This document shows positions 1 to 17,482 of a stretch of 21,869 nucleotides of DNA, one piece after another. Source of the stretch: a virus. Each line of letters starts with the position of its first letter. The stretch's first letter is position 1. The stretch covers positions 1 to 21,869 of IMG/VR virus record IMGVR_UViG_3300042448_001677, one strand, 5' to 3'. A program made the position numbers and the translations under genes. The notes below the pieces were generated by a model. The model did not search any database. It was given only the letters and a program-made list of their open reading frames with translations, and was not told the origin of the DNA.

Positions 1-1
1 G

Positions 2-1852
2 GTTGCAGACTCAATAACCGATGTTTTAACTTTTGTGGCTGGTACAAACGTATCTATTACAACAAATGCCACAACTGATTCTATTACTATTAATTCAGCT
101 GGTGACTACTCCTCTGTTGACTCTATCACATATCCAGACTACATTACTTTTGATACCACCCCAGAAACTGTTCCAACTGCAACAGGAAGCATCTTTTGGG
201 ACGAAGGGGACGGTCTCCCAGCAACAGTTTTAAATGCAAACGTAACAATTGGTTTAGGGCAAGAACAAGTTGCTTTAGTTAAAAACGATACAGGTGCATC
301 TATTGCTAAGGGCAAAGTTGTTTATATTAATGGTGCTCAGGGTCAAAGACCAACTATCACTTTGTCTGATGCAGATACAGAATCAACATCCTCTAAAACA
401 TTTGGTTTAACAGCAGAGGCTATTGCAGATGAAGCGGAGGGGTTTGTAACAACCTTTGGTATATTGCGTGGGGTTAATACTCTTGGGCTAACTGAGGGTG
501 CTGCACTATGGCTATCCACAACAGCAGGTGGTTATACCACAACAGTACCAGCAGAACCTGCACACTCTGTGTTTATTGGTTATGTAGTTAAAGCTCATGC
601 AACAGCTGGCGAAATTTTTGTAAACATTCAAAACGGATACGAGCTTGATGAGTTGCATGGAGTTTCAATAAATGGTGTGTCAGAAGATCAAACTCTAAGA
701 TATGACGATGCTTCTGGGCTTTGGAAAAACACCCACCCAAATATAATTACTGCAAAAAATGCTACTGAATCAACAATAGCAGCTTTTACTCCAGTATATA
801 TTAATACTCAGGAGTTTGATCAGGATAATGTAACTTTCGTACCTGCTGATGCTGCAACATCTATGTATCTTGCAAAACTACCAGCAGATGCAATAACGGT
901 TGAATCTGTATTAAGTAATAATTCTACAAAGCTTGTTACAATGGGTGTGGTTTCTGGACTTAACTTAACTGGGTACTCTCTTGGTCAACTTTTATATATA
1001 GGTGTTGGTGGTGGTCTAACTTCAACAAGACCAACGGGAACAAATGCTATTCAGCCATTTGCAAGGGTGTTATCTACAGATAACGGAACTATATATGTTT
1101 ATGGAAATACTTTTGTTTCTTCAATAGACACTTTACCAAACCTAGCATCAGATAAGATATGGCTTGGAACATCTGGAAGACCAGTAGAAACAACTCTAAA
1201 TACCTCAGTTGTTCCAGAGGGAACCAACCTATACTTTACTGATGAAAAGGCACAAGACGCAGCAGCCTCAATGATAACTGGTGGAGCACATAATGGTGTA
1301 TCTGTAGAGTATGTAGACTCATCTGGAATATTTAACTTTACGAATACTGGCGTTACCGCACTTTATGGAACAACAAATGAAATTTCTGTATCTGGATCAA
1401 CTGGTGGAGTCACTATTGGTATTCCAGATTCCCCAGTTTTTGTTACTCCAAATATTGGAGCAGCAACAGCAACATCTCTTGTTGTTAATGGTGCAACGGT
1501 AAAAACCACAACCACAACACTTACATCAGCCTCTCCAACAACCATTGCTACCTTTTCACCAGGTGATGGGGCACTAGCAATAGAATGTCTGGTCCTAGTT
1601 TCAAGTCTTAATATTGGTGCATACACAACCTCTAAGATTTTACTTGCAGGAGACGTATCTGCATCTGATACTGTTGATATTACTGAGTATGCAATTATAG
1701 AAAAAGATTCTGGATCTGGTTTTATTGACCTAACACTCAGTGCTGATACTGGAGGAGGCAATATATTGCTAAAAGCTACAGTAACTAATTATAACGGAGT
1801 GACTGTAAAAGTTGTTTCAACTTCAATACAGGCTCCATTAGGGGCTTCATAA
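2..1852 (+). CDS. Large virion structural / tail-fibre protein, 5' end missing
   Basis: The reading frame is open from the first full codon (nt 2), so the true start lies upstream; the GTG at 35 is inside a conserved beta-rich stretch (VAGTNVSITTNATTD) and is not a credible start. The protein is Thr/Ser/Gly/Asn-rich, with no signal peptide or membrane segment. It contains two diverged copies of one about 120-residue domain (nt 269-634 and 746-1108). These are followed by the motif VPEGTNLYFTDEKAQDA (about nt 1210-1260), which is common in structural proteins of cyanophages and other marine or freshwater phages. A C-terminal beta module (about nt 1490-1840) recurs in the protein at 9720. The first domain (VKNDTG...KGKVVYING, then GxxRGVNT) matches virion proteins I recall from metagenomic Caudoviricetes. 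It probably forms part of the distal tail or baseplate fibre. The exact position in the virion cannot be told. Confidence 0.8.
   Translation, partial: VADSITDVLTFVAGTNVSITTNATTDSITINSAGDYSSVDSITYPDYITFDTTPETVPTATGSIFWDEGDGLPATVLNANVTIGLGQEQVALVKNDTGASIAKGKVVYINGAQGQRPTITLSDADTESTSSKTFGLTAEAIADEAEGFVTTFGILRGVNTLGLTEGAALWLSTTAGGYTTTVPAEPAHSVFIGYVVKAHATAGEIFVNIQNGYELDELHGVSINGVSEDQTLRYDDASGLWKNTHPNIITAKNATESTIAAFTPVYINTQEFDQDNVTFVPADAATSMYLAKLPADAITVESVLSNNSTKLVTMGVVSGLNLTGYSLGQLLYIGVGGGLTSTRPTGTNAIQPFARVLSTDNGTIYVYGNTFVSSIDTLPNLASDKIWLGTSGRPVETTLNTSVVPEGTNLYFTDEKAQDAAASMITGGAHNGVSVEYVDSSGIFNFTNTGVTALYGTTNEISVSGSTGGVTIGIPDSPVFVTPNIGAATATSLVVNGATVKTTTTTLTSASPTTIATFSPGDGALAIECLVLVSSLNIGAYTTSKILLAGDVSASDTVDITEYAIIEKDSGSGFIDLTLSADTGGGNILLKATVTNYNGVTVKVVSTSIQAPLGAS
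269..1108 (+). repeat. Internal domain duplication in the first structural protein
   Basis: Two protein-level copies at nt 269-634 and 746-1108 align by eye. Both have a K-N-x(4-5)-I opening followed by VYIN, an F/M-G-(I/V)-x(2)-G-(V/L)-N-(T/L) strand, a (E/L)G-A/Q-LxL/I turn, a Gly-Gly-x-T-x-T-x-P turn, and a closing G-(E/T)-I-(F/Y)-V-(N/Y). The DNA is no longer visibly repeated, so this is an old duplication. Confidence 0.6.
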
Positions 1853-1854
1853 TG

Positions 1855-1863
1855 TGCTATAAT
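1855..1863 (+). promoter_or_regulatory. Possible extended -10 promoter element
   Basis: TGCTATAAT is a perfect TGnTATAAT extended -10 motif just downstream of the stop of the first gene. No convincing -35 is seen 16-18 nt upstream. A start near 1870 would leave a leader of about 19 nt carrying the GAAGGGA ribosome site before the TTG at 1889. This may be fortuitous in AT-rich DNA. Confidence 0.35.
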
Positions 1864-1888
1864 TTTTCTGAAGGGACAGTGAACTTCA

Positions 1889-3616
1889 TTGGCTAGTAAA
1901 AATTTTATTGTTAAAAACGATATTGAGTTAAAGGGAAACCTCATATTTGAGGGTGCCACTAAAGATGCCAATGAAACAACCCTTACAATAACTAATCCTA
2001 CAGCAGATAGAACTATAACCTTTCCTGACAATTCTGGAACAATATCTTTAACTTCCCATAATCACACATTAGATAGCCTTTCAAATGTTGTGGTAACTGG
2101 AACGCCCACCGATGGACAGGCAATCGTTTGGGATACTGACACTTCAAAGTGGATAAATCAAACAGTTGATTCTTTTCCATCACAATCTGGAAACACTGGC
2201 AAGTTCTTACAAACAAACGGAACAAGTGTTTCCTGGGCTTTTGTAGATTTATCTGCTTATTTAACCGCAGAGTCTGACACCCTTGAAACGGTAACTGATC
2301 GTGGTGCAACATCAACAAACGCCATTACAATATCTAATACAACACAGGCAACCAGTTCAACTACAGGCTCATTAATTATATCTGGTGGTGTGGGAATTGC
2401 CAAAGATGTTTGGATTGATGGAAACCTTTATGTTGCTGGTACAACTACTACTGAAAATACCCAGACAGTAGCAACTCATGACAACTTAATCTATTTAAAT
2501 GCTGCTCAGGATAGTGTAATTACAAATGCTGTTGGAAGTGGAACTTATGTAACATATACCGCAGAAAATGATTATACTCCAGGAATGGATATTAGAGTTA
2601 CTGGAATGAACCCAGCAGGATATAACATATCTTCTGCAGATGGTCTTACTGTTTTTTCTGCTACAGCTACACAGTTTGTTGTTGCTAAAACTACCACTGG
2701 AACATTTGTTTCTGGTGGAACTGCTCATGCAAAGACAGAAGCAAATCCAGACTTAGGTTTTGCAGGTGGATATTATAATGCAGGATATGCTCACGCAGGT
2801 CTGTTTAGAGATGCATCTGACGGAGTGTTTAAGTTCTTTGAGGGATACACACCAGAGCCAGATGAGGCAGTAAATATTGACACCACCCACGCATCTTTTA
2901 CCCTAGCAGACCTTACTGCAAATGGTGCCGTGTTTACTGGGACAGTAGTTGTTGGTGGAATACAGAACAATGGTCAAGACATTACTTTAAACTCGTCACA
3001 GACTGGCACTCCATCCTTAAATGCATCTATGGTTGTAGAGCGTGGAAGTAGCAACAATGTAGCAATCCGCTGGAATGAAACTTTAAATATGTGGGAGTTT
3101 ACAAACGATGGTATTGAATATCAGGGGTTTGGATCTGGCGGTGGAGTAGAGATTTCCAATGATCCACCAACTGAAGCACTTACTGCTGGGCTAACCTGGT
3201 TTCAAATAGAAACTGGAAGACTTTATGTATATGACGGTACTTTCTGGGTTGAAGCATCTAACAACCTTAATGATGAAGCGGTAATGGATATTGTTTCAAC
3301 AATGGTTGCAAACGGAACCCATAACAATATTGAAATTACTTACAGTGACGTAAGCAATTCCCTAAGCTTTAATGTTCTTAGCGAACCAATCACAGATTTC
3401 CTGACATTAAATGAAAATATCACTGGCACTCCTACAGGCAATGCTGGTATAATAGTAAATCGTGGAGATTTAACTGATGTTTCAATTAGGTTTAATGAGA
3501 CAGAAGATCAGTGGGAATACACGAATGACGGTTCAGAGTACCAGTCAATTGGTTCAGGCGGAGGAGCAGTATCTACAATGACTGCCCTTTCAAATAGTTT
3601 TTGGTTAGGAGCATAA
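1889..3616 (+). CDS. Tail-fibre-like virion protein with duplicated receptor/shaft module
   Basis: 575 aa, TTG start chosen because it follows GAAGGGA (1870-1876) and begins the conserved N-terminus MASKNFIVKNDIELKGNLIF. An attachment-type region follows (TADRTITFPDNSGT, residues about 38-52), then GSLIISGGVGIAKDVWIDGNL (about 160-180), typical of cyanophage-like tail fibres. Two copies of a beta module with the pattern TGTP...N-A-G/S...V-x-RG...I-R-(W/F)-N-E-T...W-E-(F/Y)-T-N-D-G sit at residues 360-419 and 502-559. Between them lie a Y-x-YDG-x-FWV hairpin (about 446-454) and a segment (about 460-496) that resembles a piece of the preceding protein. The family is usually a trimeric fibre with beta-helical or beta-prism repeats. 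No chaperone domain or catalytic residues are seen. Position on the tail is inferred. Confidence 0.75.
   Translation: MASKNFIVKNDIELKGNLIFEGATKDANETTLTITNPTADRTITFPDNSGTISLTSHNHTLDSLSNVVVTGTPTDGQAIVWDTDTSKWINQTVDSFPSQSGNTGKFLQTNGTSVSWAFVDLSAYLTAESDTLETVTDRGATSTNAITISNTTQATSSTTGSLIISGGVGIAKDVWIDGNLYVAGTTTTENTQTVATHDNLIYLNAAQDSVITNAVGSGTYVTYTAENDYTPGMDIRVTGMNPAGYNISSADGLTVFSATATQFVVAKTTTGTFVSGGTAHAKTEANPDLGFAGGYYNAGYAHAGLFRDASDGVFKFFEGYTPEPDEAVNIDTTHASFTLADLTANGAVFTGTVVVGGIQNNGQDITLNSSQTGTPSLNASMVVERGSSNNVAIRWNETLNMWEFTNDGIEYQGFGSGGGVEISNDPPTEALTAGLTWFQIETGRLYVYDGTFWVEASNNLNDEAVMDIVSTMVANGTHNNIEITYSDVSNSLSFNVLSEPITDFLTLNENITGTPTGNAGIIVNRGDLTDVSIRFNETEDQWEYTNDGSEYQSIGSGGGAVSTMTALSNSFWLGA
2966..3565 (+). 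repeat. Duplicated beta module inside the second structural gene
   Basis: Protein-level copies at nt 2966-3145 and 3392-3565 are strongly alike: both carry GTP, VERG or VNRG, IRWNET or IRFNET, WEFTNDG or WEYTNDG and end in GSGGG. A weaker trace (DNLIYLNAAQ, about nt 2483-2512) may be a decayed third copy. Confidence 0.7.
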
Positions 3617-3617
3617 T

Positions 3618-4604
3618 ATGGGTTTAATGAGATTAGGACTTTCAAATCCTTCAGCAAATACAGACGTTGCTATTTATACAGCAACAGGTCCATTTCTAGC
3701 ATCCATCATTGCTACAAATAAGTCTGCTTCAGTTACTTCAAATGTTAGAATGTGGATTGTACCAAGCGGTGCAACACTAACATCACAATATGCCTATCTT
3801 GCATATGATCAAGATATTGTGCCACAAAACAGTTTAGAAACACACCGCTTTGCATTAAATCAAAATGACGTGGTATATGTAAGAGCAGATACAAATGATA
3901 TGTCATTTATGATTAATGGATTAAAGCAGGTAGATATTGCATTAGCAGCAGGTGTTACATCATATTCAAATACCCCACCATTAGATGTTATGGATGGAAT
4001 GATTTGGGTAGATAAAGATGGAAATGGAACTGCATTAAACACTCTTGCAGGTCAGATAATTCAGTCAAATTCTACTACACAAGTTCCACTTACTGTAAGA
4101 GGGATTACATCACAGACAGCAGATATATTTGACGTGCAAAATAGTGCAAGTGCAGATTTATTTTCTGTTAATAAAGATGGATACGTTAAAACTCCACTGC
4201 AACCAGCATTTAGATATCATGGATTTACTTTAAATGGCAGTGGTATGCAAGGTGGATCTGCACCATTAAATGTAAGTTCCTCGCTTTCTGTTTTTCCAGT
4301 AGGAAATGCAAGCTATACTAGGTTTACAGCACCAATTGCAGGGACATATCTTTTAGGATTTTCTCATCTAATAACTGAAAATACAGGAAGATGTGAAATA
4401 AATCTTCGAAAAAATGGATCTCAAACAATTGATGGATATGGCTCTTATTCTGGAAATGACTGGACTGGAGGATACTCTACAGCACAAAATACTTTTTTGC
4501 TTTCTTTGAGTGCAAATGATTATGTAGATGTGGTTCTTGTTTTAGGAACTCTTTTTGGGTCTCCAAGAGCAGATCAACAATTTTGGGGATATTTACTAGG
4601 ATAA
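3618..4604 (+). CDS. Tail-fibre protein with C-terminal C1q/TNF-like domain
   Basis: 328 aa. The start ATG follows TTAGGAG (3605-3611) at good spacing and gives the same N-terminus (RLGLSNPSANTD) as the paralogue at 5524 (RLAISNPGATTD). Residues 1-108 form that shared adaptor domain (ASIIATNK, then MWIVP, then LETHRF). Residues about 126-133 hold a short GMIWVDKDG hairpin. Residues 155-198 form a linker also found at 4889 and 9091. Residues about 198-328 look like a C1q/TNF jelly-roll: RFTAPIAGTYLLGFS, then INLRKNG, then FLLSLSANDYVDVVL, ending in WGYLLG. C1q-like heads in phage fibres are trimeric and bind receptors. The combination suggests a short trimeric adhesin. It is co-translated with its neighbours. 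Confidence 0.75.
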   Translation: MGLMRLGLSNPSANTDVAIYTATGPFLASIIATNKSASVTSNVRMWIVPSGATLTSQYAYLAYDQDIVPQNSLETHRFALNQNDVVYVRADTNDMSFMINGLKQVDIALAAGVTSYSNTPPLDVMDGMIWVDKDGNGTALNTLAGQIIQSNSTTQVPLTVRGITSQTADIFDVQNSASADLFSVNKDGYVKTPLQPAFRYHGFTLNGSGMQGGSAPLNVSSSLSVFPVGNASYTRFTAPIAGTYLLGFSHLITENTGRCEINLRKNGSQTIDGYGSYSGNDWTGGYSTAQNTFLLSLSANDYVDVVLVLGTLFGSPRADQQFWGYLLG

Positions 4605-4617
4605 AAAGGAGAATAAA

Positions 4618-4881
4618 ATGGAATATACGGTAACACTAACAGAAGCACAAGACAAGGCATTAGCCTATGTTGCATTTGATCCACAAGAATGGATTCAAAA
4701 TGCCGCTTCAGAACGTGCACGAATTGCGATGGAAGAAATTTTTCAGGCAGAGGTAGCAAGAATGCTTGCTGACCCGTCTGTAACTGAAATTCCTGCAGAT
4801 CGTGAAGCAGTAGTTCTTGCAGCAGATGTACTTTCTGCAGCAGAGCGTCAAGCTTCAATTTCAGCACCAGAGGCGGTATAA
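4618..4881 (+). CDS. Small acidic tail-fibre-associated protein
   Basis: 87 aa, preceded by a strong ribosome site (AAAGGAGA, 4605-4612). The sequence is predicted mostly helical and is acidic and Ala-rich (TLTEAQDKALAYVAFDPQEWIQNAASERARIAMEEIFQAEVARMLAD). It is quite unlike its beta-rich neighbours. Small proteins with a start like this (Y-x-V-x-L-T-x-A-x-x-K-A-L-x-Y-V-A...PQEW) occur next to tail-fibre genes in many aquatic phages. A role in fibre folding or assembly is a reasonable guess from context only. No catalytic motif is seen. Confidence 0.65.
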   Translation: MEYTVTLTEAQDKALAYVAFDPQEWIQNAASERARIAMEEIFQAEVARMLADPSVTEIPADREAVVLAADVLSAAERQASISAPEAV

Positions 4882-4882
4882 T
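4877..4882 (+). promoter_or_regulatory. TATAAT placed 6 nt before the ATG at 4889
   Basis: A consensus -10 hexamer overlaps the stop codon of the preceding gene, and a standard start site 7 nt past its end would fall on the A of the ATG. The best -35 at 17-nt spacing is TTCAAT (4854-4859), a poor match. The gene at 4889 has no ribosome site at usable distance. Confidence 0.3.
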
Positions 4883-4888
4883 TAAAGA

Positions 4889-5524
4889 ATGGTAGCATCA
4901 CAAGCAAGACCAGCATATATTTATGATACTACTCTAGGCGATTGGGTTCCAATGTCTGGGGTAGTTGATACTGGTCAAGCATACACTTTTACAGCTAATC
5001 AAACATTTAATGGTTTAGTTAATGCTAATAATGGTATTAATGCTGCTACCACTTTAAGTTTACAAACAGGTGGAACAACTAGACTAAGTATTGATTCTGG
5101 TGGCAGGGTAAATAAGCCATTTCAACCATCATTTTATGTACTACATACAGGTGGTGGCTTAAATGATATAAATGCAGCCCTAATACTTAATAGTCCACAG
5201 GTTAATGTTGGAAATCATTATTCTGCATCTACTGGAAGATTTACTGCACCTATTGCTGGAGCATATATGTTTTACTTTGGCACAATTAAATCGGATAATG
5301 GAAAAACTCCAGATACAGGTACATCTAGGTTTAGAATTAGAAAAAACGGAACAGCTTTTTCAACAGAATTAAGATTAAGTGAAAATGGCGGATATGGAGA
5401 AAGCTCTTCTCTGGTTGCTTCTACATTCTTGTCTGCAAATGACTATGTAGATGTTTTTATAACTGATGCTGGTGGTTGGTATGGTGGAACCTATGCTCAC
5501 TTTGGGGGGTATCTAATAGGATAA
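4889..5524 (+). CDS. Short tail-fibre protein with C1q/TNF-like head
   Basis: 211 aa. The N-terminus carries an aromatic hairpin (AYIYDTTLGDWVPMSG, residues about 9-24), then a linker (TRLSIDSGGRVNKPFQPSF, about 64-82) matching those at 3618 and 9091. The head (residues about 80-211) is C1q-like: GRFTAPIAGAYMFYFG, then RFRIRKNG, then TFLSANDYVDVFI, ending in FGGYLIG. No Shine-Dalgarno sequence precedes the ATG; translation is by coupling or from a leaderless message (see 4877). The end of the gene and the start of the next share a 26-nt segment with the 9091/9720 junction. It is probably a trimeric receptor-binding protein. Confidence 0.72.
   Translation: MVASQARPAYIYDTTLGDWVPMSGVVDTGQAYTFTANQTFNGLVNANNGINAATTLSLQTGGTTRLSIDSGGRVNKPFQPSFYVLHTGGGLNDINAALILNSPQVNVGNHYSASTGRFTAPIAGAYMFYFGTIKSDNGKTPDTGTSRFRIRKNGTAFSTELRLSENGGYGESSSLVASTFLSANDYVDVFITDAGGWYGGTYAHFGGYLIG
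5225..5247 (+). repeat. 23-nt exact direct repeat, copy 1 (with 9421-9443)
   Basis: A 23-nt stretch beginning GCATCTACTGGAAGATT is identical at 9421-9443. In both it encodes the A-S-T-G-R-F-T-A strand of the C1q-like heads, in genes about 4.2 kb apart. Confidence 0.85.
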
Positions 5525-5528
5525 TGGC
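5503..5528 (+). repeat. 26-nt gene-junction repeat, copy 1 (with 9699-9724)
   Basis: TGGGGGGTAT[C/T]TAATAGG followed by ATAATGGC spans the last codons of a C1q-like gene, its stop, and the overlapping ATG of the next gene. The copy at 9699-9724 differs at one base and occupies the same kind of junction. It includes the AGGA ribosome site used by the downstream gene. Confidence 0.85.
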
Positions 5529-6777
5529 AATTTCAAGATTAGCAATTTCAAATCCAGGTGCAACAACAGATACCCTTCTTCATACCGCCACTCGTAGTTC
5601 ACTCGCATCTATCATTGCAACTAATAAAGCAAATACTGTGGCGGAAGTTAGAGTTTGGATAGTTCCACAAGGTCAAGATGCTACCCCTGCAAATTGGTCA
5701 TACATTGCATATGATGCAGATATTACTGCAACTAACTCTCTTGAAACATTCCGCTTTCCAGTAATGTCTGGAGATAAGATTTATGTAAGATCAACAACAG
5801 CAGATGTATCATTTCAAATTATGGGTATCTATGAAACAGGTGCAGATACATATGTTTATGCACAAGCAACTGAACCTACCGCTCCACAAGTTGGAGATAT
5901 CTGGGTAGATACAGCAAGTGATGTTCCAAGCATTGATAATACAACTGTATATCGTTGGTCAAAAACTGCGGTAGGTGGAGAAACTTCTCTATCTGGAGCT
6001 GGAAATGATTTATCTATTCTTAAATATATTGCAGGGTATGAGCAGGTGTATTTAAACGGGGTACTCCTAGCAAAAAATCTAGACTACTTTGCGACCAATG
6101 GAACATCTATTACATCTTTAACCGCACTTTCTGCAGGGGATATTGTAGAAGTAATTTCCCCATACGCTATTGAATTAACAGATGTATATACTAAGTCTGC
6201 TTCTGATGCCAAATACGATACTAAAGTATCTAATGGATTAAATTTAGTTATTCCTACTGGAGTTGTAGTTGGCTCTGGAACTGGAACTATTTCTGCAAAT
6301 GGTCAAATATCATTTAGCGGTTCCAGTACAGTTGATGTAATTAATTGTTTTTCATCCACATATGATACCTACAAAATTTTAATATCTGCACATGCTGCTA
6401 CTGGAGGACCTGCACTAGCAATGAACTTTAGGGACGCTACCACTCTTGTAAGCACTGGATACTATGGTGGCGTTTGGAGTACAAGGTTTGATGGCGTAAC
6501 TGCTGCAACTGCTATAAATAATGCAAGCTCTATAACAGTTGCTACAACTATGGGAAGCATACCTGGAAATAGGTGTGTTGTTAGTTTAGATTTATATAGA
6601 ACAGCTATTGATGGTGTTGTTACTGGTACTGGATTTGGCGGTTCTAATTCCGCAGCACTTACTGTTTCTGCTAACAGAACTGGTATGACAAACTTTACTG
6701 GACTTACAATTAGCCCCTCTTCTTCTACTATGACGGGTACAATAAGAATTTATGGATATAATAATGGTGGTGCATAA
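5524..6777 (+). CDS. Multidomain tail-fibre protein
   Basis: 417 aa from the ATG at 5524, which overlaps the previous stop by 1 nt (TAATG). An in-frame extension to 5476 would run into the previous gene and is rejected because MAISRLAISNPGATTD aligns with the start of the 3618 paralogue. Residues 1-108 form the shared adaptor domain. A GDIWVDTAS/VYRWSKT hairpin follows (about 122-150). Next comes a segment of about 60 residues with YEQVYLNGVLLAKNLDYFA, a common phage tail-fibre insert. A TDVYTKSASDAKY segment likely forms a trimeric coiled linker. The C-terminal beta domain (about residues 255-417: ISFSGSSTVDVINCFSSTYD, later TGTIRIYGYNNGG) resembles a recurrent phage tail-tip domain. Function: virion adhesin, by family and context. 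Confidence 0.75.
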   Translation: MAISRLAISNPGATTDTLLHTATRSSLASIIATNKANTVAEVRVWIVPQGQDATPANWSYIAYDADITATNSLETFRFPVMSGDKIYVRSTTADVSFQIMGIYETGADTYVYAQATEPTAPQVGDIWVDTASDVPSIDNTTVYRWSKTAVGGETSLSGAGNDLSILKYIAGYEQVYLNGVLLAKNLDYFATNGTSITSLTALSAGDIVEVISPYAIELTDVYTKSASDAKYDTKVSNGLNLVIPTGVVVGSGTGTISANGQISFSGSSTVDVINCFSSTYDTYKILISAHAATGGPALAMNFRDATTLVSTGYYGGVWSTRFDGVTAATAINNASSITVATTMGSIPGNRCVVSLDLYRTAIDGVVTGTGFGGSNSAALTVSANRTGMTNFTGLTISPSSSTMTGTIRIYGYNNGGA

Positions 6778-7305
6778 ATGAGTAGAGCTAGAGATAATGC
6801 AAGTGGAGCAATGCCTGGTAATACAATTCAAGTTGTACAAAAAGTTTTTAAGGATGTTTGGTCTTCAGCAACAGGGGCAACTACTTTTTCTCAAATTACA
6901 GGATTTGAACAGGCTATAACTCCAAAATATGCTAGTAGTAAAATTTTAGTGTCATATCATATGCATCTTTCTACTGGATATTGGGAAATCCAAGGAAGAA
7001 TGACAAGAAATGGTTCAGTTTTAACAGATTCTCTTGGTCTTACTCGTGGATCACGAATACCTGTATCTTTTGCAGTTAATAATTATGAAGGTGGAACATC
7101 TGGAAACTCGTGGAATGATACTTTCTTTCAATTTTTAGACTCTCCAAATACAACTTCAACCTTAACTTATGGTATGCAGCTTAATGCATACTCAACTTAT
7201 ACCGTAGGTATAAATAGAAATGTTTATGCAGACACCGATGCTGCTGACTACTATGGACAGCCGATATCAACAATTACTATAATGGAGATTGCACACAATG
7301 GGTAA
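6778..7305 (+). CDS. Short tail protein with beta-sandwich tip domain
   Basis: 175 aa. The ATG directly follows the previous stop codon. The body is a single beta-rich domain (IQVVQKVFKD...ITGFEQAITPKYASSKILVSYHMHLS...FFQFLDSPNTTSTLTYGMQL...INRNVY...ISTITIMEIA). It is the same family as the gene at 8534 and as many phage tail-tip proteins. The short N-terminus (MSRARDNASGAMPGN) is the only linker. No signal peptide or metal-binding His cluster is present. It is probably a small trimeric adhesin or fibre tip, co-expressed in the fibre array. Confidence 0.68.
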   Translation: MSRARDNASGAMPGNTIQVVQKVFKDVWSSATGATTFSQITGFEQAITPKYASSKILVSYHMHLSTGYWEIQGRMTRNGSVLTDSLGLTRGSRIPVSFAVNNYEGGTSGNSWNDTFFQFLDSPNTTSTLTYGMQLNAYSTYTVGINRNVYADTDAADYYGQPISTITIMEIAHNG

Positions 7306-8356
7306 GAGAACATATACATATGATGGAACGGATTGGGTAGGATTAACTTCAACTACCGCCGATTTATCTAATTATGCCAACATGACTACTACCCCAATTA
7401 GTGGTTTTAGAAATGTAATTATTAATGGTGACTTTAGAATTAATCAACGTGGTCTAGGATCTGCTGGAACAGTTTATACTTCAGGGTATGGATTTGATAG
7501 ATGGTATGTAGAAGCAAATAATGGAACATTGACTCACTCTGCACAAACATTTACTCCTGGAAATGCTATAGCTGGATATGAGCCAATAAGTTTTGCAAGA
7601 TTAACTACTAGTGGTCAAACTTTGTCTGGTGCTTATGCAGCATTAATTCAAAAAATTGAAGATGTTAGATCACTTGCAGGGCAAACAATTACTATATCTT
7701 TTTGGGCTAAGGCTGCATCTGGTACTCCAAAAATTGCAATTGAAATGGATCAAAACTTTGGATCAGGTGGCTCAACCCGTGTAACAACATTGGCAGGTCA
7801 AGTAACTCTGTCTACTTTATGGAATAGATATTCGGTAACAGTTCAGGTTCCTTCTATTTCTGGAAAAACAATTGGATCAAGCTCGTTTATTGCCTTAGAT
7901 TTATTTACATCTGCAGGTGCTGATTTTAATGCTCGTAGCGGATCACTTGGTATTCAAAATAATACCTTTGATTTTTGGGGTGTTCAAGTTGAGGCAGGAA
8001 CTACTCCCACACCGCTTGAGCAACGTCCAATAGGACTTGAAACAACTCTTTGCCATAGATACTTTCAAAGATTTATTGACCCTGCTGGATTTGGAGTTAA
8101 CGCTGGAGGAAATGCAACAAGAGTATTAATGCCCTTATACACAAGAATGAGGGCAATCCCAACTACCGTTATCTCTGGAACTTTTAATTTTTGGAATGGA
8201 GGAGGCACTGGAACTTCAACTGCTCTACAAGCTGCATATAATTCTATATCGCATGGTCAACTAGATTTTCTTGGTGGAGCAGGAACTACAGGTCAGCCAA
8301 ATGCACTATATACAAATGGTGGATCTAATTATGCAGATTTTAGTGCGGAGTTATAA
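7298..8356 (+). CDS. Receptor-binding tail protein with carbohydrate-binding-like domain
   Basis: 352 aa. The ATG at 7298 is preferred to the TTG at 7289 because GGAG (7284-7287) is correctly spaced for it. The gene overlaps the previous one by 8 nt. The N-terminus has a hairpin YTYDGTDWVG (residues 6-15), then a conserved entry motif RNVIINGDFRINQRG. A beta-sandwich follows: YGFDRWYV, QKIEDVRSLAGQTITISFWAKA, WNRYSVTVQVP, FDFWGVQVEAG. It closes with the boundary LEQRPIGLETTLCHRYFQRF and a further C-terminal beta segment. This layout is common in putative receptor-binding proteins of aquatic phages and resembles carbohydrate-binding modules. Glycan binding is inferred. Confidence 0.75.
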   Translation: MGKRTYTYDGTDWVGLTSTTADLSNYANMTTTPISGFRNVIINGDFRINQRGLGSAGTVYTSGYGFDRWYVEANNGTLTHSAQTFTPGNAIAGYEPISFARLTTSGQTLSGAYAALIQKIEDVRSLAGQTITISFWAKAASGTPKIAIEMDQNFGSGGSTRVTTLAGQVTLSTLWNRYSVTVQVPSISGKTIGSSSFIALDLFTSAGADFNARSGSLGIQNNTFDFWGVQVEAGTTPTPLEQRPIGLETTLCHRYFQRFIDPAGFGVNAGGNATRVLMPLYTRMRAIPTTVISGTFNFWNGGGTGTSTALQAAYNSISHGQLDFLGGAGTTGQPNALYTNGGSNYADFSAEL

Positions 8357-8526
8357 TGTATAAAAAATGTATTGACTCAATAACTGGAGAAGAAGCAAAA
8401 TGTGTTAATCGTTTATCAGATAACGCAATAATACCATTTGACGAATCAAATATGGACTATCAAGAATATTTAAAGTGGCTAGAAGAAGGAAATATTCCTG
8501 AGCCTTCTGATCTAGAGGAGGTATAA
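8356..8526 (+). CDS. Tiny tail-fibre partner protein (56 aa)
   Basis: The ATG at 8356 overlaps the previous stop (TAATG) and the frame runs 56 codons to the TAA at 8524-8526. The sequence ends DYQEYLKWLEEGNIPEPSD. I recall this pattern (D-Y-x-x-Y-x-x-W-L-x-x-G-N-x-P-x-P-x-D) from small phage proteins encoded beside, or at the ends of, tail-fibre genes. It is acidic, with Cys5 and Cys16. Its own 3' end supplies the ribosome site of the next gene. Conserved pattern, position and coupling make it a real gene; an assembly or accessory role is inferred. Confidence 0.75.
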   Translation: MYKKCIDSITGEEAKCVNRLSDNAIIPFDESNMDYQEYLKWLEEGNIPEPSDLEEV

Positions 8527-8527
8527 T
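8515..8527 (+). promoter_or_regulatory. Consensus ribosome site GAGGAGGT fused to a TATAAT hexamer
   Basis: GAGGAGGT (8515-8522) is a near-perfect Shine-Dalgarno sequence 11 nt from the ATG at 8534. TATAAT (8522-8527) overlaps its last base and ends 6 nt before the ATG, so a transcript starting 7 nt downstream would begin at the A of the ATG. No -35 is recognisable. The ribosome site is the safer reading. Confidence 0.5.
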
Positions 8528-8533
8528 AGTAAT

Positions 8534-9091
8534 ATGCCTGGATATTTAGTACCTACAAATACTGTTGATCAATCTACCACCGTTGGTGGATATAATATAT
8601 TTCAAGCAGTTAATAGTGGCTCTATATTACAAGTAAAAAATATTACAAAGACTGATGCACAGGTTATAAGTGGTGCATTGTGGAATGACATTTCTGGTTT
8701 ATCTTTATCAATTACCCCCACATATTCTAGTAGCAACATATTAATAATTGCAGATGTAAAGGCAGCTGGAGATACTGATGCAAGCGTTGTAAGATCTAGG
8801 GTACTTAGAGATTCAACGGCAATTGGAATTGGAGATGCCTCAAGTTCTAGACCAAGGTCCTTGTCAGAATTTTATATGGCATCAGGTGCTGGACCATTCT
8901 ATGTAGCACAGCTTGGTGGAAATATTTGGGACTCGCCCAACACAACATCTGCAATAACCTATAAAGTTCAATTGGGTGGGGACAGCAATGGCTCAACTGT
9001 ATTTATTAATAGAACTGAAGGCGATAGAGATACTGCTTATTACGATGGAAGATTTATATCTTCAATAACTTTAATGGAGATTGCAGGATAA
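8534..9091 (+). CDS. Short tail protein, paralogue of the 6778 gene
   Basis: 185 aa. The N-terminus MPGYLVPTNTVDQSTTVGGYN is a short adaptor; the next gene also starts MPGY. The body (residues about 30-185) is the same beta domain as at 6778: ILQVKNITKTDAQ, LSLSITPTYSSSNILI, RVLRDSTAIGIGDASSSRPRS, IWDSPNTTSAITYKVQL, VFINRTEGDRD, FISSITLMEIAG. The two share the pattern D-S-P-N-T-T-S, x-I-N-R and S-(T/S)-I-T-(I/L)-M-E-I-A. This domain is frequent in phage tail-tip proteins of unknown ligand. It probably forms a trimeric spike or fibre tip. Confidence 0.7.
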   Translation: MPGYLVPTNTVDQSTTVGGYNIFQAVNSGSILQVKNITKTDAQVISGALWNDISGLSLSITPTYSSSNILIIADVKAAGDTDASVVRSRVLRDSTAIGIGDASSSRPRSLSEFYMASGAGPFYVAQLGGNIWDSPNTTSAITYKVQLGGDSNGSTVFINRTEGDRDTAYYDGRFISSITLMEIAG

Positions 9092-9720
9092 TGCCAGGAT
9101 ATGTAAAGCCCCCAGTAAATGGACGTATAAACGGCACTATGGAAATGATACCGTCTCTTTCTACCCAAACCCCCCTAACAATTAAAGGGGCTGTATCTCA
9201 AACAGCAAACTTATTAAACATTCAGGATAGTAGTGGAACCGTAATAGGATCTATTGATTCATCTGGAAGACATGTAAGAAACAACCCCTCATTTTTAATT
9301 CGTAGTTCGGCTGGAACGGCATATAATGGTGGAGGCACATGGCTAGACATATCAAGGCTTTTAACATCTGGTGGGGTTTCTACGGCAATTGTAGATCATA
9401 ACATTGGTTCAAACTGGAATGCATCTACTGGAAGATTTACTGCCCCAGTTTCTGGAAGATATTTGTTTTATGCAGGTGGATGGACCAACTATAATGGTGC
9501 AGGAAATAGGTATGCAATTTCTTTTACTATCAATGATGGCTCTCTAACATATATTTCTGGAGCAAATACCTCTATAGCGGATTCACCTGTTGTATTTTCT
9601 CCAGTAATTTACAACCTTGCTGCAGGTGACTATATGATTTGCAAGATGTTTTCTTCCGTTGCAATGAATCTTGGAACAGGAAGTCATGCATTTTACTATG
9701 GGGGGTATTTAATAGGATAA
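9091..9720 (+). CDS. Tail-fibre protein with C1q/TNF-like head
   Basis: 209 aa, 1-nt overlap with the previous stop; AGGA lies just upstream. The N-terminus MPGYVKPPVNGRINGTMEM matches the first residues of the 8534 protein. The linker (TPLTIKGAVSQTANLLNIQD...IGSIDSSGRHVRNNPSF, residues about 28-70) is clearly related to the 3618 protein (LTVRGITSQTADIFDVQN). The C1q-like head (about 70-209) includes GRFTAPVSGRYLFYAGG and NLAAGDYMICKMF, ending in YYGGYLIG. DNA repeats shared with the 4889 gene (5225/9421 and 5503/9699) show recombination or recent duplication of the module. It is probably a receptor-binding head. Confidence 0.73.
   Translation: MPGYVKPPVNGRINGTMEMIPSLSTQTPLTIKGAVSQTANLLNIQDSSGTVIGSIDSSGRHVRNNPSFLIRSSAGTAYNGGGTWLDISRLLTSGGVSTAIVDHNIGSNWNASTGRFTAPVSGRYLFYAGGWTNYNGAGNRYAISFTINDGSLTYISGANTSIADSPVVFSPVIYNLAAGDYMICKMFSSVAMNLGTGSHAFYYGGYLIG
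9421..9443 (+). repeat. 23-nt exact direct repeat, copy 2 (with 5225-5247)
   Basis: Identical to 5225-5247 and lying at the equivalent place in a C1q-like head. Confidence 0.85.
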
Positions 9721-9724
9721 TGGC
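9699..9724 (+). repeat. 26-nt gene-junction repeat, copy 2 (with 5503-5528)
   Basis: One mismatch to copy 1. It spans the C-terminal GGYLIG codons, the stop and the overlapping start of the next gene. The downstream genes differ at the two sites (adaptor 'ISRLAISNP' at 5524, 'TIFPLDP' at 9720), so the repeat marks a border at which different genes have been joined. Confidence 0.85.
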
Positions 9725-10175
9725 TACTATATTTCCTTTAGACCCAGAACTTAATGATACATATACATCAGGCAGTGTTACTTGGATTTGGGACGGTGAA
9801 GCATGGGTAAGATCATTTGTTGATGATACCGTCAATACTGATGTTCTTGTAGATATTGTTTCACAAACTGTATCTATTACTGCAAATACCGCCACAACAA
9901 TTAGCTCCTTTGCTACAACAAAGTATAGAACTGCTGAGTTTATTGTTCAGGTAACACAGGGAACAGACTACTATTCCTCAAAGATATTTTTAATACATGA
10001 TGGCACCAATACAAAAATTACTCAGTATGGTATCCTTGAAAGCACAGTTAATGCAATTCCAGTAACAATATCATCTACAATATCTGGAGGAAATGTCCTT
10101 TTAAGAGCAACAGTAACAGATGCTTCCACATCTAATTGTTCTGTTAAAATAATCAGAACTGCGGTAACTGTTTAA
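9720..10175 (+). CDS. Small tail protein with MATIFPLDP adaptor
   Basis: 151 aa from the ATG at 9720 (1-nt overlap, AGGA upstream). A longer in-frame version from 9639 lies inside the previous gene and is rejected because MATIFPLDP is also the start of the gene at 15937. Residues 1-32 form that adaptor with an aromatic hairpin (WIWDGEAWVR). Residues about 45-151 (TVSITANTATTISSF, YYSSKIFLIHDGTNTKITQYGIL, GGNVLLRATVTD, VKIIRTAV) match the C-terminal module of the first gene in the window (SKILLAGDVSASDTVDITEYAII, GGGNILLKATVTN, VKVVST). It is therefore a two-module protein made from parts found elsewhere in the array. Structural role inferred. Confidence 0.7.
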   Translation: MATIFPLDPELNDTYTSGSVTWIWDGEAWVRSFVDDTVNTDVLVDIVSQTVSITANTATTISSFATTKYRTAEFIVQVTQGTDYYSSKIFLIHDGTNTKITQYGILESTVNAIPVTISSTISGGNVLLRATVTDASTSNCSVKIIRTAVTV

Positions 10176-10846
10176 TGATTAATCTAAAGGTAAAATCTGG
10201 TTTAGAGTCCAAAGAATATGGACAAAATATATTGCCACAAGTTGGAACAATTTTAATATATGCTGGAACTACAGCACCTGCTGGATGGCTTTTATGTAAT
10301 GGTTCAACCTTTGATCAAACCTTATATCCACAACTATATGCTCTTTTAGGTAATTCAAATACCCTCCCAGACTTAAGAGAAAGATATTTGATTGGTAAAG
10401 GCAGTGATAGTCTTACTTTAAATACAAATACTGGTTCAAGTAATCATGAGCATTCATATTCATATGCTGGTAATAATAGCAATAACACCGCAATTTCTCA
10501 TGCTCATAATGTTGGTACATATTTTAATGCAACCTATACCGCTCATGCACACTACTCATATTTAAATGTTGGCATTGATTTTTTTGGAAACAATGCTGCT
10601 AACTATAGAGCAGGAAGCTCTCAGAATATGACAACTCAAAACCATGAGCACTATACTGGTGGATATGCATCGGGATCAAACTATGCTGGATATAATCATG
10701 CACATAATGGAGCCATAACTAGAAATGATACGAATGCACCTGCACACGCTCACACTGTAGCATCAAGTGCAGCTGGGTATATTTCCTCAAACACCGCAAT
10801 TATACCTCCAACAATCTATTTAAACTTTATAGTTAAGGCAGGATAA
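10175..10846 (+). CDS. Tail-collar protein with HxH needle region
   Basis: 223 aa, 1-nt overlap with the previous stop. A phage tail-collar domain (Pfam Collar type) covers residues about 20-75: GTILIYAGTTAPAGWLLCNG, YPQLYALLG, LPDLRERYLIGKG. It is followed by a Gly/Asn/His-rich region with six His-x-His motifs (HEH at 91-93, then HAH, HAH, HEH, HAH, HAH) and the closing strand PPTIYLNFIVKAG. In T4, HxH motifs of trimeric gp37 and gp12 bind metal ions along a needle-like tip. The same layout suggests a metal-stabilised trimeric receptor-binding needle. It is the first of three consecutive collar paralogues. Confidence 0.82.
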   Translation: MINLKVKSGLESKEYGQNILPQVGTILIYAGTTAPAGWLLCNGSTFDQTLYPQLYALLGNSNTLPDLRERYLIGKGSDSLTLNTNTGSSNHEHSYSYAGNNSNNTAISHAHNVGTYFNATYTAHAHYSYLNVGIDFFGNNAANYRAGSSQNMTTQNHEHYTGGYASGSNYAGYNHAHNGAITRNDTNAPAHAHTVASSAAGYISSNTAIIPPTIYLNFIVKAG

Positions 10847-10847
10847 A

Positions 10848-11522
10848 ATGAGCAACTTTAACGTAAAAGATGGAGTACAAATAGCAGACAGCAAAAATCC
10901 ATTTTTCTTGCCAGGTGCAATTGTATCCTCAATGGTTGCAGCAACCCCTGATGGTTGGTTAAACTGTAATGGTCAAGAAGTTTTAATAACTCAGTATCAA
11001 GACCTATATACTTCAATTGGAACAACATATAACTTAGGCACTGAAACTGTAGGTTACTTTAGATTGCCAAATATGTCTTCAAGATATCTTATTCAGAAAA
11101 CATCTGGTAGTGGTATTTATGGAAACTCTAGCACACATAGCCACTCAACTTCTGCAAACTATGATTTAGCAGCAAAAACCGTAGATCATGGTCATCCAAC
11201 AAACAATTATGTAAATAACAATAACATTTACCATGCCCCAGGTGGTGGTGGATCAGGTGGTGGTACTGACAATAACCCACTAAATGCAAACAAAACTGGT
11301 TTTTCTTCTGGTGGTGCCTCTGGTGCAGGTCATTTCCACTCAGTAAACTGTGGTGGGAACCAAGATGGACCTTATGGAAATGATCATGGTCATGGAATGT
11401 CTACAGGTATTGGAAACTCTTCACAAAGTCATACGCATTCTGGGTCATTTGCAGCAGTAAACTCCAATAGTTCATCCATAAACCCACAAAGTTTTGTAAT
11501 AAATTATTTTATAAAGTCTTAA
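10848..11522 (+). CDS. Tail-collar protein with HxH needle region (second paralogue)
   Basis: 224 aa. AGGCAGGA lies 5 nt before the ATG. The N-terminus (MSNFNVKDGVQIAD) resembles that of the preceding gene (INLKVKSGLES). The collar domain covers residues about 21-88: GAIVSSMVAATPDGWLNCNG, YQDLYTSIGTTYNLG, FRLPNMSSRYLIQK. The distal part is Gly/Asn/Ser-rich with five HxH motifs (HSH, HGH, HFH, HGH, HTH) and a glycine run (GGGGSGGG) that could be a flexible loop. It closes with SFVINYFIKS. It is probably a trimeric metal-binding tip like its neighbours, with different loops. Confidence 0.82.
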   Translation: MSNFNVKDGVQIADSKNPFFLPGAIVSSMVAATPDGWLNCNGQEVLITQYQDLYTSIGTTYNLGTETVGYFRLPNMSSRYLIQKTSGSGIYGNSSTHSHSTSANYDLAAKTVDHGHPTNNYVNNNNIYHAPGGGGSGGGTDNNPLNANKTGFSSGGASGAGHFHSVNCGGNQDGPYGNDHGHGMSTGIGNSSQSHTHSGSFAAVNSNSSSINPQSFVINYFIKS

Positions 11523-11528
11523 GTAGGA

Positions 11529-11534
11529 TATAAT
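11529..11534 (+). promoter_or_regulatory. TATAAT placed 6 nt before the ATG at 11541
   Basis: In the 18-nt gap before the third collar gene lies a consensus -10 hexamer, 7 nt from hexamer end to the A of the ATG. The only ribosome-site-like bases (AGGA, 11525-11528) are 12 nt from the start, longer than usual. No -35 is obvious; the region at 11503-11512 is A/T only. Confidence 0.35.
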
Positions 11535-11540
11535 ATAAAC

Positions 11541-12278
11541 ATGACTAGCGTAGACTTAGAGGTAATATCTGGATATGATATTGACACAAACACCAATAGC
11601 TTTATTCCAGTTGGCTCAATTGTTTCCTATGGTCATAACTCTTTTTTAACAAACATTGATGAAATTGGAATGGTTCCCTGTGATGGAAGATCACTGAATA
11701 CATTTACATACAGCAATCTTCACAAAATAATTGGAAATATTTATGGTGGTACAGCATATTCTGCAGGAACAACAGACCAACCTTCTGCGGTTACAACCTT
11801 TAATGTTCCAACCTTAAACAATTCTGTTAAGTTTTTAGCAATGAAAAATGCTCAAGCGTTAAATGCATCTGGGGGTTCTGCATCGCACACCCACACAAAT
11901 TCTATAAATGCTACTACAACTGCTGGAACCTCAACCTTTGATCATGGTCACTACTGGTCAGCTTATGCACAGGCACAGGGAGAATATCACGCACACTATA
12001 TGGGTGGGTTTTATTTTGGAAACTCAAATACTCCAGCAAATCAACCAGTTGGAAAAGTTGATGGTAATCAGTCTGCTGCAGGGCGATACCATGCTCACAG
12101 TGGATATGTTCCTGCAATTGGATATGGAGCGTACACTGAACACGATCATTATGCAGATGGCAATATGTATACTGCAAGTGGAACTAATCATGATCATACG
12201 GTATCTGTATCAACAACTACTGCTGTTACAACGGCAGTACCGAACTACGCAACAGCAATGTTTTATATAAAAATATAA
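11541..12278 (+). CDS. Tail-collar protein with HxH needle region (third paralogue)
   Basis: 245 aa. The collar domain covers residues about 22-103: FIPVGSIVSYGHN, MVPCDGRSLNTFTYSNLHKIIGNIYGG, TFNVPTLNNSVKFLAMKN. It is followed by a His/Tyr/Ala-rich distal part with six HxH motifs (HTH, HGH, HAH, HAH, HDH, HDH) and the end strand PNYATAMFYIKI. The collar motif is more diverged than in the two preceding genes (GMVPCDGR instead of GWLLCNG). The start codon follows an unusual TATAAT-containing gap. It probably forms a trimeric needle tip on the same tail structure or an alternative to the other collar proteins. Confidence 0.8.
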   Translation: MTSVDLEVISGYDIDTNTNSFIPVGSIVSYGHNSFLTNIDEIGMVPCDGRSLNTFTYSNLHKIIGNIYGGTAYSAGTTDQPSAVTTFNVPTLNNSVKFLAMKNAQALNASGGSASHTHTNSINATTTAGTSTFDHGHYWSAYAQAQGEYHAHYMGGFYFGNSNTPANQPVGKVDGNQSAAGRYHAHSGYVPAIGYGAYTEHDHYADGNMYTASGTNHDHTVSVSTTTAVTTAVPNYATAMFYIKI

Positions 12279-12293
12279 GGATAGGAGGGTAAA

Positions 12294-12653
12294 ATGACAT
12301 ACAAGAAAATATTAGTGGGAGACAAGTTAATCTTTGGAGTATCTGATACCGAGTTTATTGACATAGATGGACACGAAAAGTTTAACTATTTTTGCAGTCT
12401 TTCTGAGTCTCATAAAGAAGATCTAATTCAAGACATAAAAGATGGTCTTATGGAGGCGGTAGAAGAAGAGCTATCATGCTTAGACACTGGATCACAAGAC
12501 CACTTGACAAAAACTATTGCATATGTTAGACTTATGCAAACAGTATCTTCATCTATTTACATAAATAATGAAACTTTAGCTAAGGAGCAAGAACAAGCAT
12601 TGCTACAGCAAAGTTTAATAGATCAAGCAGAAAATTGGAGTTTTAGTGAGTAA
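12294..12653 (+). CDS. Small acidic protein of unknown function
   Basis: 119 aa with a very strong ribosome site (TAGGAGGGT, 12282-12290). The N-terminal third (ILVGDKLIFGVSDTEFIDID) looks beta-stranded. The rest looks helical and acidic (ESHKEDLIQDIKDGLMEAVEEELSCLD, and a Gln/Glu-rich C-terminus ETLAKEQEQALLQQSLIDQAE). No known motif was recognised. It begins the cassette between the collar genes and overlaps the following gene by 8 nt, so the two are probably translated together. It could be an assembly partner for the neighbouring virion proteins; nothing in the sequence proves it. Confidence 0.65.
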   Translation: MTYKKILVGDKLIFGVSDTEFIDIDGHEKFNYFCSLSESHKEDLIQDIKDGLMEAVEEELSCLDTGSQDHLTKTIAYVRLMQTVSSSIYINNETLAKEQEQALLQQSLIDQAENWSFSE

Positions 12654-13368
12654 GAACGCAAAGCCAGTTATAGAGTTTGTGGAGGCTAAGGTTGGGTATT
12701 CAAAAATATTTGATGCACCAGTTTTAGCCTCTGCAACTATACCTAAGTGGTATAAAGATCAAAACCTAAACATTGGAGACAAGATGGTTTTGGATAAGAC
12801 GGGAACACCAGCGAGAACAATTAAGGCGTGTATGCCAGTGTTTGATTTAATTACCGCTGGATATGTTATTAAGTGTCCAGGAGATATACTTTTTCAAGTT
12901 GATGAAAACAATGTTCCCCTAACTTCCTGGTCCGTTGATGGAATGTCTCTGGTTCAATCACATTCAAAAGATCAGTTTAATAAGTTTTCTGTACCAGAGG
13001 GATATCATCCAGATGTAGCCCTAAAGTTTATCAATCCTTGGATTGTTAGAACCCCTCCAGGATACTCAACATTGTTTATAACGCCAGTAATGAGAGACGA
13101 GTTGCCATTTTATTGTGTACCAGCCATTGTTGATACTGACAAGCACCCATCTCCAGTAAACTTTCCATTCTTTATTAAGAAAGGTTTTGAAGGAATTGTA
13201 GGTTATGATACCCCAATGATTCAAATGATACCTTTTAGAAGAGAAGAATGGTCTCATAAAATATCAGAAGCTGATGAGCTTTTAGAGCACGTTGTTTGGC
13301 AACATGCTAAGAGAAAGATTCAAAATAGATATAAAACATTCTTTAGAACAAAGAAGGTATGGAAATGA
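12646..13368 (+). CDS. Conserved phage protein, 'PKWYKD' family, copy 1
   Basis: 240 aa. The GTG start is preferred because TGGAG precedes it and the reading overlaps the previous gene by only 8 nt. The ordered motifs are IPKWYKD (32-38), RTIKACMP (57-64), TAGYVIKCPGDILF (70-83), NPWIVRTPPGYSTLFITP (130-147), IVDTD (161-165), VNFPFFIKKG (171-180) and TPMIQMIPFRREEW (189-202). The C-terminus is basic. I recall such proteins from cyanophage-like and metagenomic phages, annotated only as hypothetical or DUF (possibly DUF6065; not verified). They are globular with no signal peptide or membrane span. The paired copy downstream and the adjoining glycosyltransferases are the only functional hints. 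Confidence 0.72.
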   Translation: MSKNAKPVIEFVEAKVGYSKIFDAPVLASATIPKWYKDQNLNIGDKMVLDKTGTPARTIKACMPVFDLITAGYVIKCPGDILFQVDENNVPLTSWSVDGMSLVQSHSKDQFNKFSVPEGYHPDVALKFINPWIVRTPPGYSTLFITPVMRDELPFYCVPAIVDTDKHPSPVNFPFFIKKGFEGIVGYDTPMIQMIPFRREEWSHKISEADELLEHVVWQHAKRKIQNRYKTFFRTKKVWK

Positions 13369-14075
13369 GAATAAAGAAAAAAACATTTGAGGTGTGGGCA
13401 GAAACACCAGAAATATCTAATCTTTTTCCAGAACCAGTTTCAGCAAAAGAATTAATTCCAAAATGGTATAAGGACCTGTCTAGATACTCTGTTGGAAATA
13501 AACTAACCATTGCAGAAAATGGTGGTGCTAATATGAGTGTAAAGGCATGTATGCCATTTTTAGATAGTTTAACATCTGGATATATAGTTAAACTGCACTG
13601 CGATATCCTTGTTGAATGGATAGATGATGATAACTTTACAATGAAATGGACTAGTGAAATACCACCATTAACACCAAGAGGAAAGCCCATAGCTGATTCA
13701 GTGCCAACAGCAGAAGGATACTCAACATTTTCTCAGGCTTGGGAAATTAAATATTGTTTTAAAGCACCAAAGGGATATAGTGTTTTAGTCACCCATCCTT
13801 TAAATAGGCTAGACCTGCCATTTATTGCTACTAGCGGAATTGTTGATGCAGATAATGGAATAGGAACTGGCGGTGTGCCGTTTGCACTTAAAAAGGGATT
13901 TTCTGGGATAATAGAAGCTGGGACACCAATTTTGCAAATGATACCATTTAAGAGAGAAGACTGGAAAAAAGAGTTAGTACCTTCTATGCAAACAGCAGGT
14001 TGGAGTGCCAGACCTAGAAATAAAATTACTGGGTGGTATAAAAATGAATTATGGAAAAGGAAGGTTTATGAATAA
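13365..14075 (+). CDS. Conserved phage protein, 'PKWYKD' family, copy 2
   Basis: 236 aa. The ATG at 13365 overlaps the previous stop (ATGA) with AAGAAGG 7 nt upstream; the ATG at 13359 is too close to that ribosome site. It shares the motif order of copy 1: IPKWYKD (31-37), MSVKACMP (57-64), TSGYIVKLHCDILV (70-83), APKGYSVLVTHP (134-145), GIVDAD (158-163), VPFALKKGFSGII (171-183), GTPILQMIPFKREDW (186-200). Copies are clearly homologous but well diverged, so they probably have different jobs or form a heteromer. Function unknown. Translationally coupled to both neighbours. Confidence 0.72.
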   Translation: MRIKKKTFEVWAETPEISNLFPEPVSAKELIPKWYKDLSRYSVGNKLTIAENGGANMSVKACMPFLDSLTSGYIVKLHCDILVEWIDDDNFTMKWTSEIPPLTPRGKPIADSVPTAEGYSTFSQAWEIKYCFKAPKGYSVLVTHPLNRLDLPFIATSGIVDADNGIGTGGVPFALKKGFSGIIEAGTPILQMIPFKREDWKKELVPSMQTAGWSARPRNKITGWYKNELWKRKVYE

Positions 14076-15926: not shown

Positions 15927-15936
15927 TTAGATTACT

Positions 15937-17070: not shown

Positions 17071-17073
17071 CCC

Positions 17074-17102: not shown

Positions 17103-17107
17103 ATAGT

Positions 17108-17473: not shown

Positions 17474-17482
17474 AGGAATATA

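Follow-up and report, generated by a model that had tools for sequence, protein, structure and literature searches.

The window analysed here, 21,869 bases of viral DNA, is one whole IMG/VR record (IMGVR_UViG_3300042448_001677), the record itself being a fragment, and it carries short tail genes in a one-strand run. Part of this run forms a serial array, in which short tail-fibre-like genes of an uncultured and probably actinobacterial phage follow one another. Comparison with two sister phages, L018 and L020, reveals genes (named here by their first position) in which silent sites are constant in the 5' anchor and divergent in the 3' head, islands of DNA similarity with edges at gene borders, and heads and anchors in mixed pairings. 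We infer that homologous recombination is the cause: exchange at the conserved anchor and border islands is likely to swap heads, with the gene borders probably serving as exchange points.

In the mechanism we propose, each gene would combine a constant anchor, presumed to attach to the tail, with an exchangeable head, presumed to bind the receptor. Since a head is followed, at once or after a short gap, by the start of another gene, each head would be flanked by two conserved stretches of DNA. Co-infecting phages could recombine homologously in these stretches, replacing heads, and possibly the receptor bound, while reading frames, gene order and anchors are preserved. More tentatively, the array may work as a series of sockets, each conserved start being both the anchor of its own gene and the downstream homology arm of the preceding one. 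If this possible but bolder reading holds, any of at least seven heads could be replaced, or copied into the following socket, by two ordinary crossovers between distant phages with little else in common.

The sisters keep the gene order of the window but are mosaics. Their flanking genes are 45% (L018) and 55% (L020) identical in amino acids to those of the window, and conservation in the array is concentrated in islands. In L020 these lie at 3197-4033, 4595-5134, 5201-5278, 5519-6308, 6736-6802, 7297-7980, 8467-8614, 9073-9258, 9418-9476 and 9718-10076. Seven of the ten 5' edges fall within 70 nucleotides (nt) upstream of a gene start, a limit set after seeing the edges, and none of the ten 3' edges does; among 6950 circular shifts 5 gave a count of seven or more, as did 2 of 200,000 placements made at random. 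When the limit is varied over 10, 25, 50, 70, 100 and 150 nt, the edges counted are 3, 5, 6, 7, 7 and 7 of 10, and 7, 4, 10, 5, 35 and 85 of the 6950 shifts do as well. All four L018 edges lie at most 42 nt upstream of a start, a count that omits the first island, which begins at the contig end. A further contig, L019/L055, belongs to the same species as L018 (99.99% over 10,271 nt).

We scored silent sites as the use of the same codon at identical residues, for which about 46% is expected from codon usage. Across anchors, gene starts, a constant end piece and small open reading frames (ORFs), which are 93% identical in amino acids, the codon is shared at 502 of 576 positions in L018 (87%) and 668 of 794 in L020 (84%); the anchor limits for these counts were taken from the BLAST islands themselves. 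Sharing in the flanking genes is 223/418 (53%) and 376/631 (60%), respectively. Heads of L020 share 149 of 302 codons (49%). In the L018 heads the figure is 207 of 311, but gene 7298, whose head is shared in full, accounts for 115 of 119 of these; leaving that head out gives 92/192 (48%). The proportion of silent sites that differ (pS) likewise stays within 0.00-0.45 for the majority of anchor windows, while heads and downstream flanks mostly have values of 0.45-0.9. Because the anchor limits derive from the islands, we added the first 24 nt of each gene as an island-free control: these match at 19-24 of 24 positions in all 14 fibre-gene comparisons and at 6-17 of 24 in all seven flanking-gene comparisons. 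Extending the comparison to 75 nt gives 50-72 matching positions for the fibre genes other than gene 6778, and 19-39 for the flanking genes. Start sites are uncertain for some flanking genes, and their aligned first windows are silent-diverged too (pS 0.50-0.79).

These data bear on an explanation without recombination, in which strong purifying selection acts on anchors and diversifying selection on heads. The high amino acid identity of anchors, starts and small ORFs is what would be expected of parts that must fit the tail, and a C1q head stays at 4889 and 9091 in the sisters. However, the anchors are conserved at silent positions too, whereas heads and downstream flanks are saturated there, a pattern that selection on the protein alone does not produce; the compared flanking genes have no such conservation of their starts, and the type of head changes on the anchors of 3618 and 6778. 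We consider this explanation unlikely. Still less probable, in our estimate, is that a nucleotide-level constraint for coupled translation across overlapping stops and starts explains the conserved borders. Several genes do overlap or abut by TAATG or similar, what the two positions of the 26-nt border repeat described below have in common across the three phages is no more than TAATGGC, and a border outside the array at 13324-13370 is conserved as well; yet most islands, at 59 to 1339 nt, are longer than a ribosome-binding site, and the starts of the compared flanking genes lack conservation.

The clearest candidate joint of the array is the border at 6736-6802, which is identical to L020 at 66 of 67 nt. 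Every countable codon is the same in L020, both in the gene end (12/12) and in the following start (7/7), and in L018 the figures are 12/12 and 5/6, while the L020 heads on either side are only 30% and 27% alike in amino acids to those of the window. Behind this joint, L020 has a gene that combines the MSRARDNA start with a head of the 5524 type and ends in a second, related border copy (88%, 42 nt). In that gene (L020:6425-7003) the head and terminal border resemble those of the preceding gene and have the look of a copied head.

The division into conserved N-terminal and divergent C-terminal parts between relatives holds across the array, gene 7298 in L018 being the exception, and heads and anchors are variously combined. 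One head family occurs on several anchors: C1q on 3618, 4889 and 9091, and in L020 a head of the 5524 type on the start MSRARDNA. Conversely, one anchor carries several heads. The anchor of gene 3618 is 97% identical in L020, where its head gives no Pfam match at an expect value (E) of 0.1, and gene 6778 has the same start and a different head in all three phages. At 4889 and 9091 C1q is kept in the sisters tested (L020 4889, 67.5 bits; L020 9091, 46.8; L018 9091, 36.4), so a switch to another type of head is shown for 3618 and 6778, and for 4889 and 9091 only deep divergence.

For gene 7298 a wider scan recovered 35 loci, many of them near-copies of one another, so that the counts are not independent. 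The anchor part is encoded at 34, and 33 of these have room for a C-terminus. The window's own 89-residue C-terminus is detected immediately behind the anchor in five of the 33 (L018, L019, L013, L031 and L047), among which L018 and L019 are one species and L013 is the species of the window. A longer search extended the match to residue 351-352 in L023, L038, L041 and L050, where a diverged form of the C-terminus may be present. In L023 a 7298-type C-terminus ends one ORF (817-2181, match at 1912-2178) and the anchor lies in a separate ORF (2341-4830, match at 3829-4503).

Several observations, besides the origin of the anchor limits, weigh against head exchange by recombination at the borders. 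Gene 7298 is conserved throughout in L018, head included, and the C1q heads kept at 4889 and 9091 show no change of head family there. Two L020 islands, 5201 and 9418, begin inside the C1q motif, away from borders, and another, 3197, begins 421 nt before a gene start. The first 75 nt of gene 6778 match at only 35 and 40 positions, as in the flanks, so the joint there is short. Outside the array, gene 1889, which lies upstream, takes an intermediate place (pS 0.55 over the gene as a whole, with low values in some windows), and the last 30 nt of flanking gene 12646-13368 match L020 at 27 positions. Head alignments at 20-40% amino acid identity are uncertain, and the direction of exchange is ambiguous, as anchors or the whole cluster may have moved. 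Finally, only three lineages found in IMG/VR carry the array, so independent exchanges are few.

The original prediction placed the joints elsewhere, in two pairs of short repeats shared by the C1q genes 4889 and 9091, and proposed that recombination between copies would delete a block of about 4.2 kb. Both repeats exist: the border copies at 5503-5528 and 9699-9724 differ at one of 26 positions, and the head repeat, described as 23 nt, is exact over 24 nt, lies in the same reading frame in both genes and is the sole exact direct repeat of at least 18 nt in the window. The alignable stretches around them are longer (51 nt, 86%; 30 nt, 93%), and gene 3618 has a weaker third version of each element (4307-4357, 63%; 4579-4608, 70%) because genes 3618, 4889 and 9091 all have C1q heads. 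The genes behind the two borders had been called unrelated at their N-termini. This is correct of 5524 against 9720 (best BLASTP E 2.9), but neither start is without kin, as 5524 resembles 3618 (45.6% amino acid identity, residues 1-129) and 9720 shares its start with 15937.

Judged by length, the repeat match lies far beyond the expectation for random DNA, but the proper null is a pair of homologous C1q proteins. We therefore kept the proteins fixed and drew synonymous codons from the usage of 15 window genes in 4000 trials. The longest exact match reached at least 23 nt in 11 trials, a border with at most one mismatch arose in 127, and both repeats together in none; as the pair was chosen for its striking look, these figures overstate the excess at the DNA level. 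Over the whole C1q gene pair the codon is shared at 33 of 57 identical residues, against 25.2 expected. By the resampling and the shared codons, the repeats are mainly protein motifs common to homologous C1q heads, plus a modest DNA-level excess.

Border copy 1 is identical in L018, and the last 30 nt of its gene match L020 at 16 of 30 positions. The 30 nt preceding border copy 2 match at 12 of 30 in L018 and 14 of 30 in L020, and the head before it ends in VS, not GGYLIG, in both. To look for the deletion, we scanned IMG/VR with a degenerate pattern covering both border versions. None of the 10 loci recovered has a 4.2-kb deletion join, a limited test given that no independent contig spans the whole interval, and a rare deletion may still occur. 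Four loci (L003, L004, L008 and L009) belong to this phage group, each continuing like the window at the matching copy; the remaining six gave no nucleotide hit against the window at E 1e-5. Contigs of the window's own species are collinear with it: L052 with 1-7890, L013 with 7814-13325 and L009 with 8272-20003. L052/L004 cross border copy 1 collinearly, as L013/L003 and L014/L009 cross copy 2.

It is thus improbable, in our judgement, that the 26- and 24-nt repeats are themselves joints whose recombination deletes or adds the block. Their codon sharing is somewhat above the expectation from protein homology, they lie in the same frame, and a deletion between the borders would leave whole genes. 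Against this stand the missing upstream half of copy 2 in both sisters, the want of a deletion join at the four border loci of the group, the collinear contigs, and the length of the repeats, 24-26 nt being short for homologous recombination. More probably, the two C1q border repeats belong to one head family on different anchors and are no dedicated joint. The broader proposal, that gene borders and starts behave as homologous joints between phages, is supported: silent positions there are nearly identical, and the adjoining heads differ or have reached saturation. Head-only identities are 26-41% over all 15 pairs, with no clear grouping that would derive the head of 9091 from position 4889.

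The same-species contigs also show how differences are distributed. Of the 96 that separate L052 from the window, 95 lie inside 121-610, where L052 has a 490-nt version about 19% different, mostly silently, with one other difference in 7.9 kb. The codons of the gene concerned differ silently at 60 places and otherwise at 21, and a comparison for a possible sister origin of the tract placed neither version clearly nearer L022 or L054. In L013, 12 of 16 differences fall within 520 nt (11622-12134) of gene 11541-12278, a clustering reached by none of 5000 random placements. With differences clustered in this way, recombination-like tracts do occur within the species of the window, with none seen at the two border copies. 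All three same-species contigs found (L052, L013 and L014/L009) end within gene 7298-8356, at 7814-8272, perhaps because alternative heads branch the assembly.

The features of the array are collected in Table 1. Genes 3618, 5524, 6778 and 7298 match PHROG tail-fibre families. PHROG matches of 4889, 8534 and 9091 are only to families of unknown function, and we label these genes fibre-like from C1q content, shared heads and position; the head of 8534-9091 is related to that of 6778-7305. C1q (PF00386) scores 24.4 bits in 3618, 35.9 in 4889 and 23.7 in 9091, the last exactly at the Pfam gathering cut-off of 23.7 bits.

Table 1. Repeats, candidate joint and genes of the fibre array (positions in the window).
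Feature	Position	Strand	Description
Tail-fibre gene	3618-4604	+	Anchor, residues 1-138 (97% amino acid identity in L020), and C1q head; L020 without Pfam-detectable C1q
Small ORF, 87 amino acids	4618-4881	+	98% amino acid identity in L020
Putative fibre-like gene (from C1q and position)	4889-5524	+	Anchor, residues 1-82, and C1q head
24-nt exact repeat, copy 1	5224-5247	+	In C1q motif ASTGRFTA
Border copy 1	5503-5528	+	GGYLIG and stop of C1q gene 4889-5524, then ATGGC of gene 5524-6777
Tail-fibre gene	5524-6777	+	Anchor, residues 1-245, constant; head, 246-403, variable; terminal RIYGYNNGGA constant
Best candidate joint	6736-6802	+	3' end of gene 5524-6777 with the opening 8 codons of 6778-7305
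Tail-fibre gene, start MSRARDNA	6778-7305	+	Head different in each of three phages
Tail-fibre gene, CBM_4_9-like part	7298-8356	+	C-terminal 89 amino acids exchanged among relatives
Putative fibre-like gene	8534-9091	+	Start, residues 1-27, constant; head variable
Putative fibre-like gene	9091-9720	+	Anchor, residues 1-54, constant; C1q head variable
24-nt exact repeat, copy 2	9420-9443	+	
Border copy 2	9699-9724	+	End of C1q gene 9091-9720, then ATGGC of gene 9720-10175
Following gene, start MATIFPLDP	9720-10175	+	Start common to 15937-17070

Farther along, genes 10175, 10848 and 15937 contain phage Collar domains. The gene starts at 9720-9748 and 15937-15965 are 86% alike over 29 nt, though the second gene runs into a collar domain; this collar-domain gene also has an 18-nt tandem repeat (16559-16648) encoding DHSHYA-like units. 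At 13324-13370, a gene end outside the fibre array, 47 nt are 93.6% identical in L020, in a gene that is itself about 50% identical in amino acids. Among the 24 of 31 ORFs scanned in at least one library, in a record that is a fragment, we found no site-specific recombinase of the kind an invertible or shufflon-type cassette system would need; nor was a reverse transcriptase, as in a diversity-generating retroelement, found among them, no dedicated search for template or variable repeats having been made. Inverted pairs of 18-31 nt number 17 and are scattered, none seen with both arms at gene borders, where a cassette system would have them. Structure models of genes 9091 and 5524 built from three-sequence alignments were too poor for use (mean pLDDT, the predicted local distance difference test, 41.2 and 44.3).

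A WhiB-type ORF at 17583-17963, together with a relative in the lake Actinomycetia phage DSL-LC01 (OQ999401), suggests an actinobacterial host. DSL-LC01 gives the lowest E for the 5524 anchor among the best 15 of 29 matching records, with 35% amino acid identity over residues 1-130. Its match lies in a collagen-annotated gene, followed by a second such gene, a hypothetical gene, a halogenase and a glycosyltransferase. Counter to this host assignment, 25 of the 29 records are Pelagibacter (17) or Roseobacter (8) phages, which among the matches listed cover about residues 95-239 of gene 5524 at 30-37%. A megablast of window positions 3000-12000 against named phages gave no match, DSL-LC01 included, and a scan of genome contigs with the alignment of gene 5524 hit the pattern 46 times without turning up a relative.

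Tail-fibre exchange is known from older work on P2, Mu and T4-like phages. What the present array adds is a view, at silent-site resolution, of the probable places of head exchange in a phage with many fibre genes, namely gene borders and anchor ends, and it supplies short sequences with which metagenome time series could be followed for the natural frequency of head swaps. In the portions of Pas et al. 2023 (PMC10408124) drawn on here, E. coli phage tailspikes join a conserved N-terminal anchor to an exchangeable C-terminal domain and have conserved DNA before and after the receptor-binding domain, and these motifs are proposed as recombination hotspots across phage genera. The motifs are 44, 95 and 20 nt long and on average 63, 69 and 81% identical, and the downstream motif is noncoding and terminator-like. 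As in that account, the variable head part of the array is flanked by conserved DNA on both sides; since the same role is proposed there, the kind of process is already known. Unlike the tailspikes as those portions present them, the array lines up at least seven fibre-like genes one behind another, and it is the following gene that provides, with its start, the downstream arm. This serial arrangement is a local feature, for which we claim no absence from the literature. Smug et al. 2023 (PMC10684548), in the part drawn on here, report recent and ongoing shuffling of fragments between otherwise unrelated phage proteins, pronounced in receptor-binding proteins. As described there, that survey works at the level of protein, whereas here the edges of similarity islands are placed at gene borders at the level of DNA.

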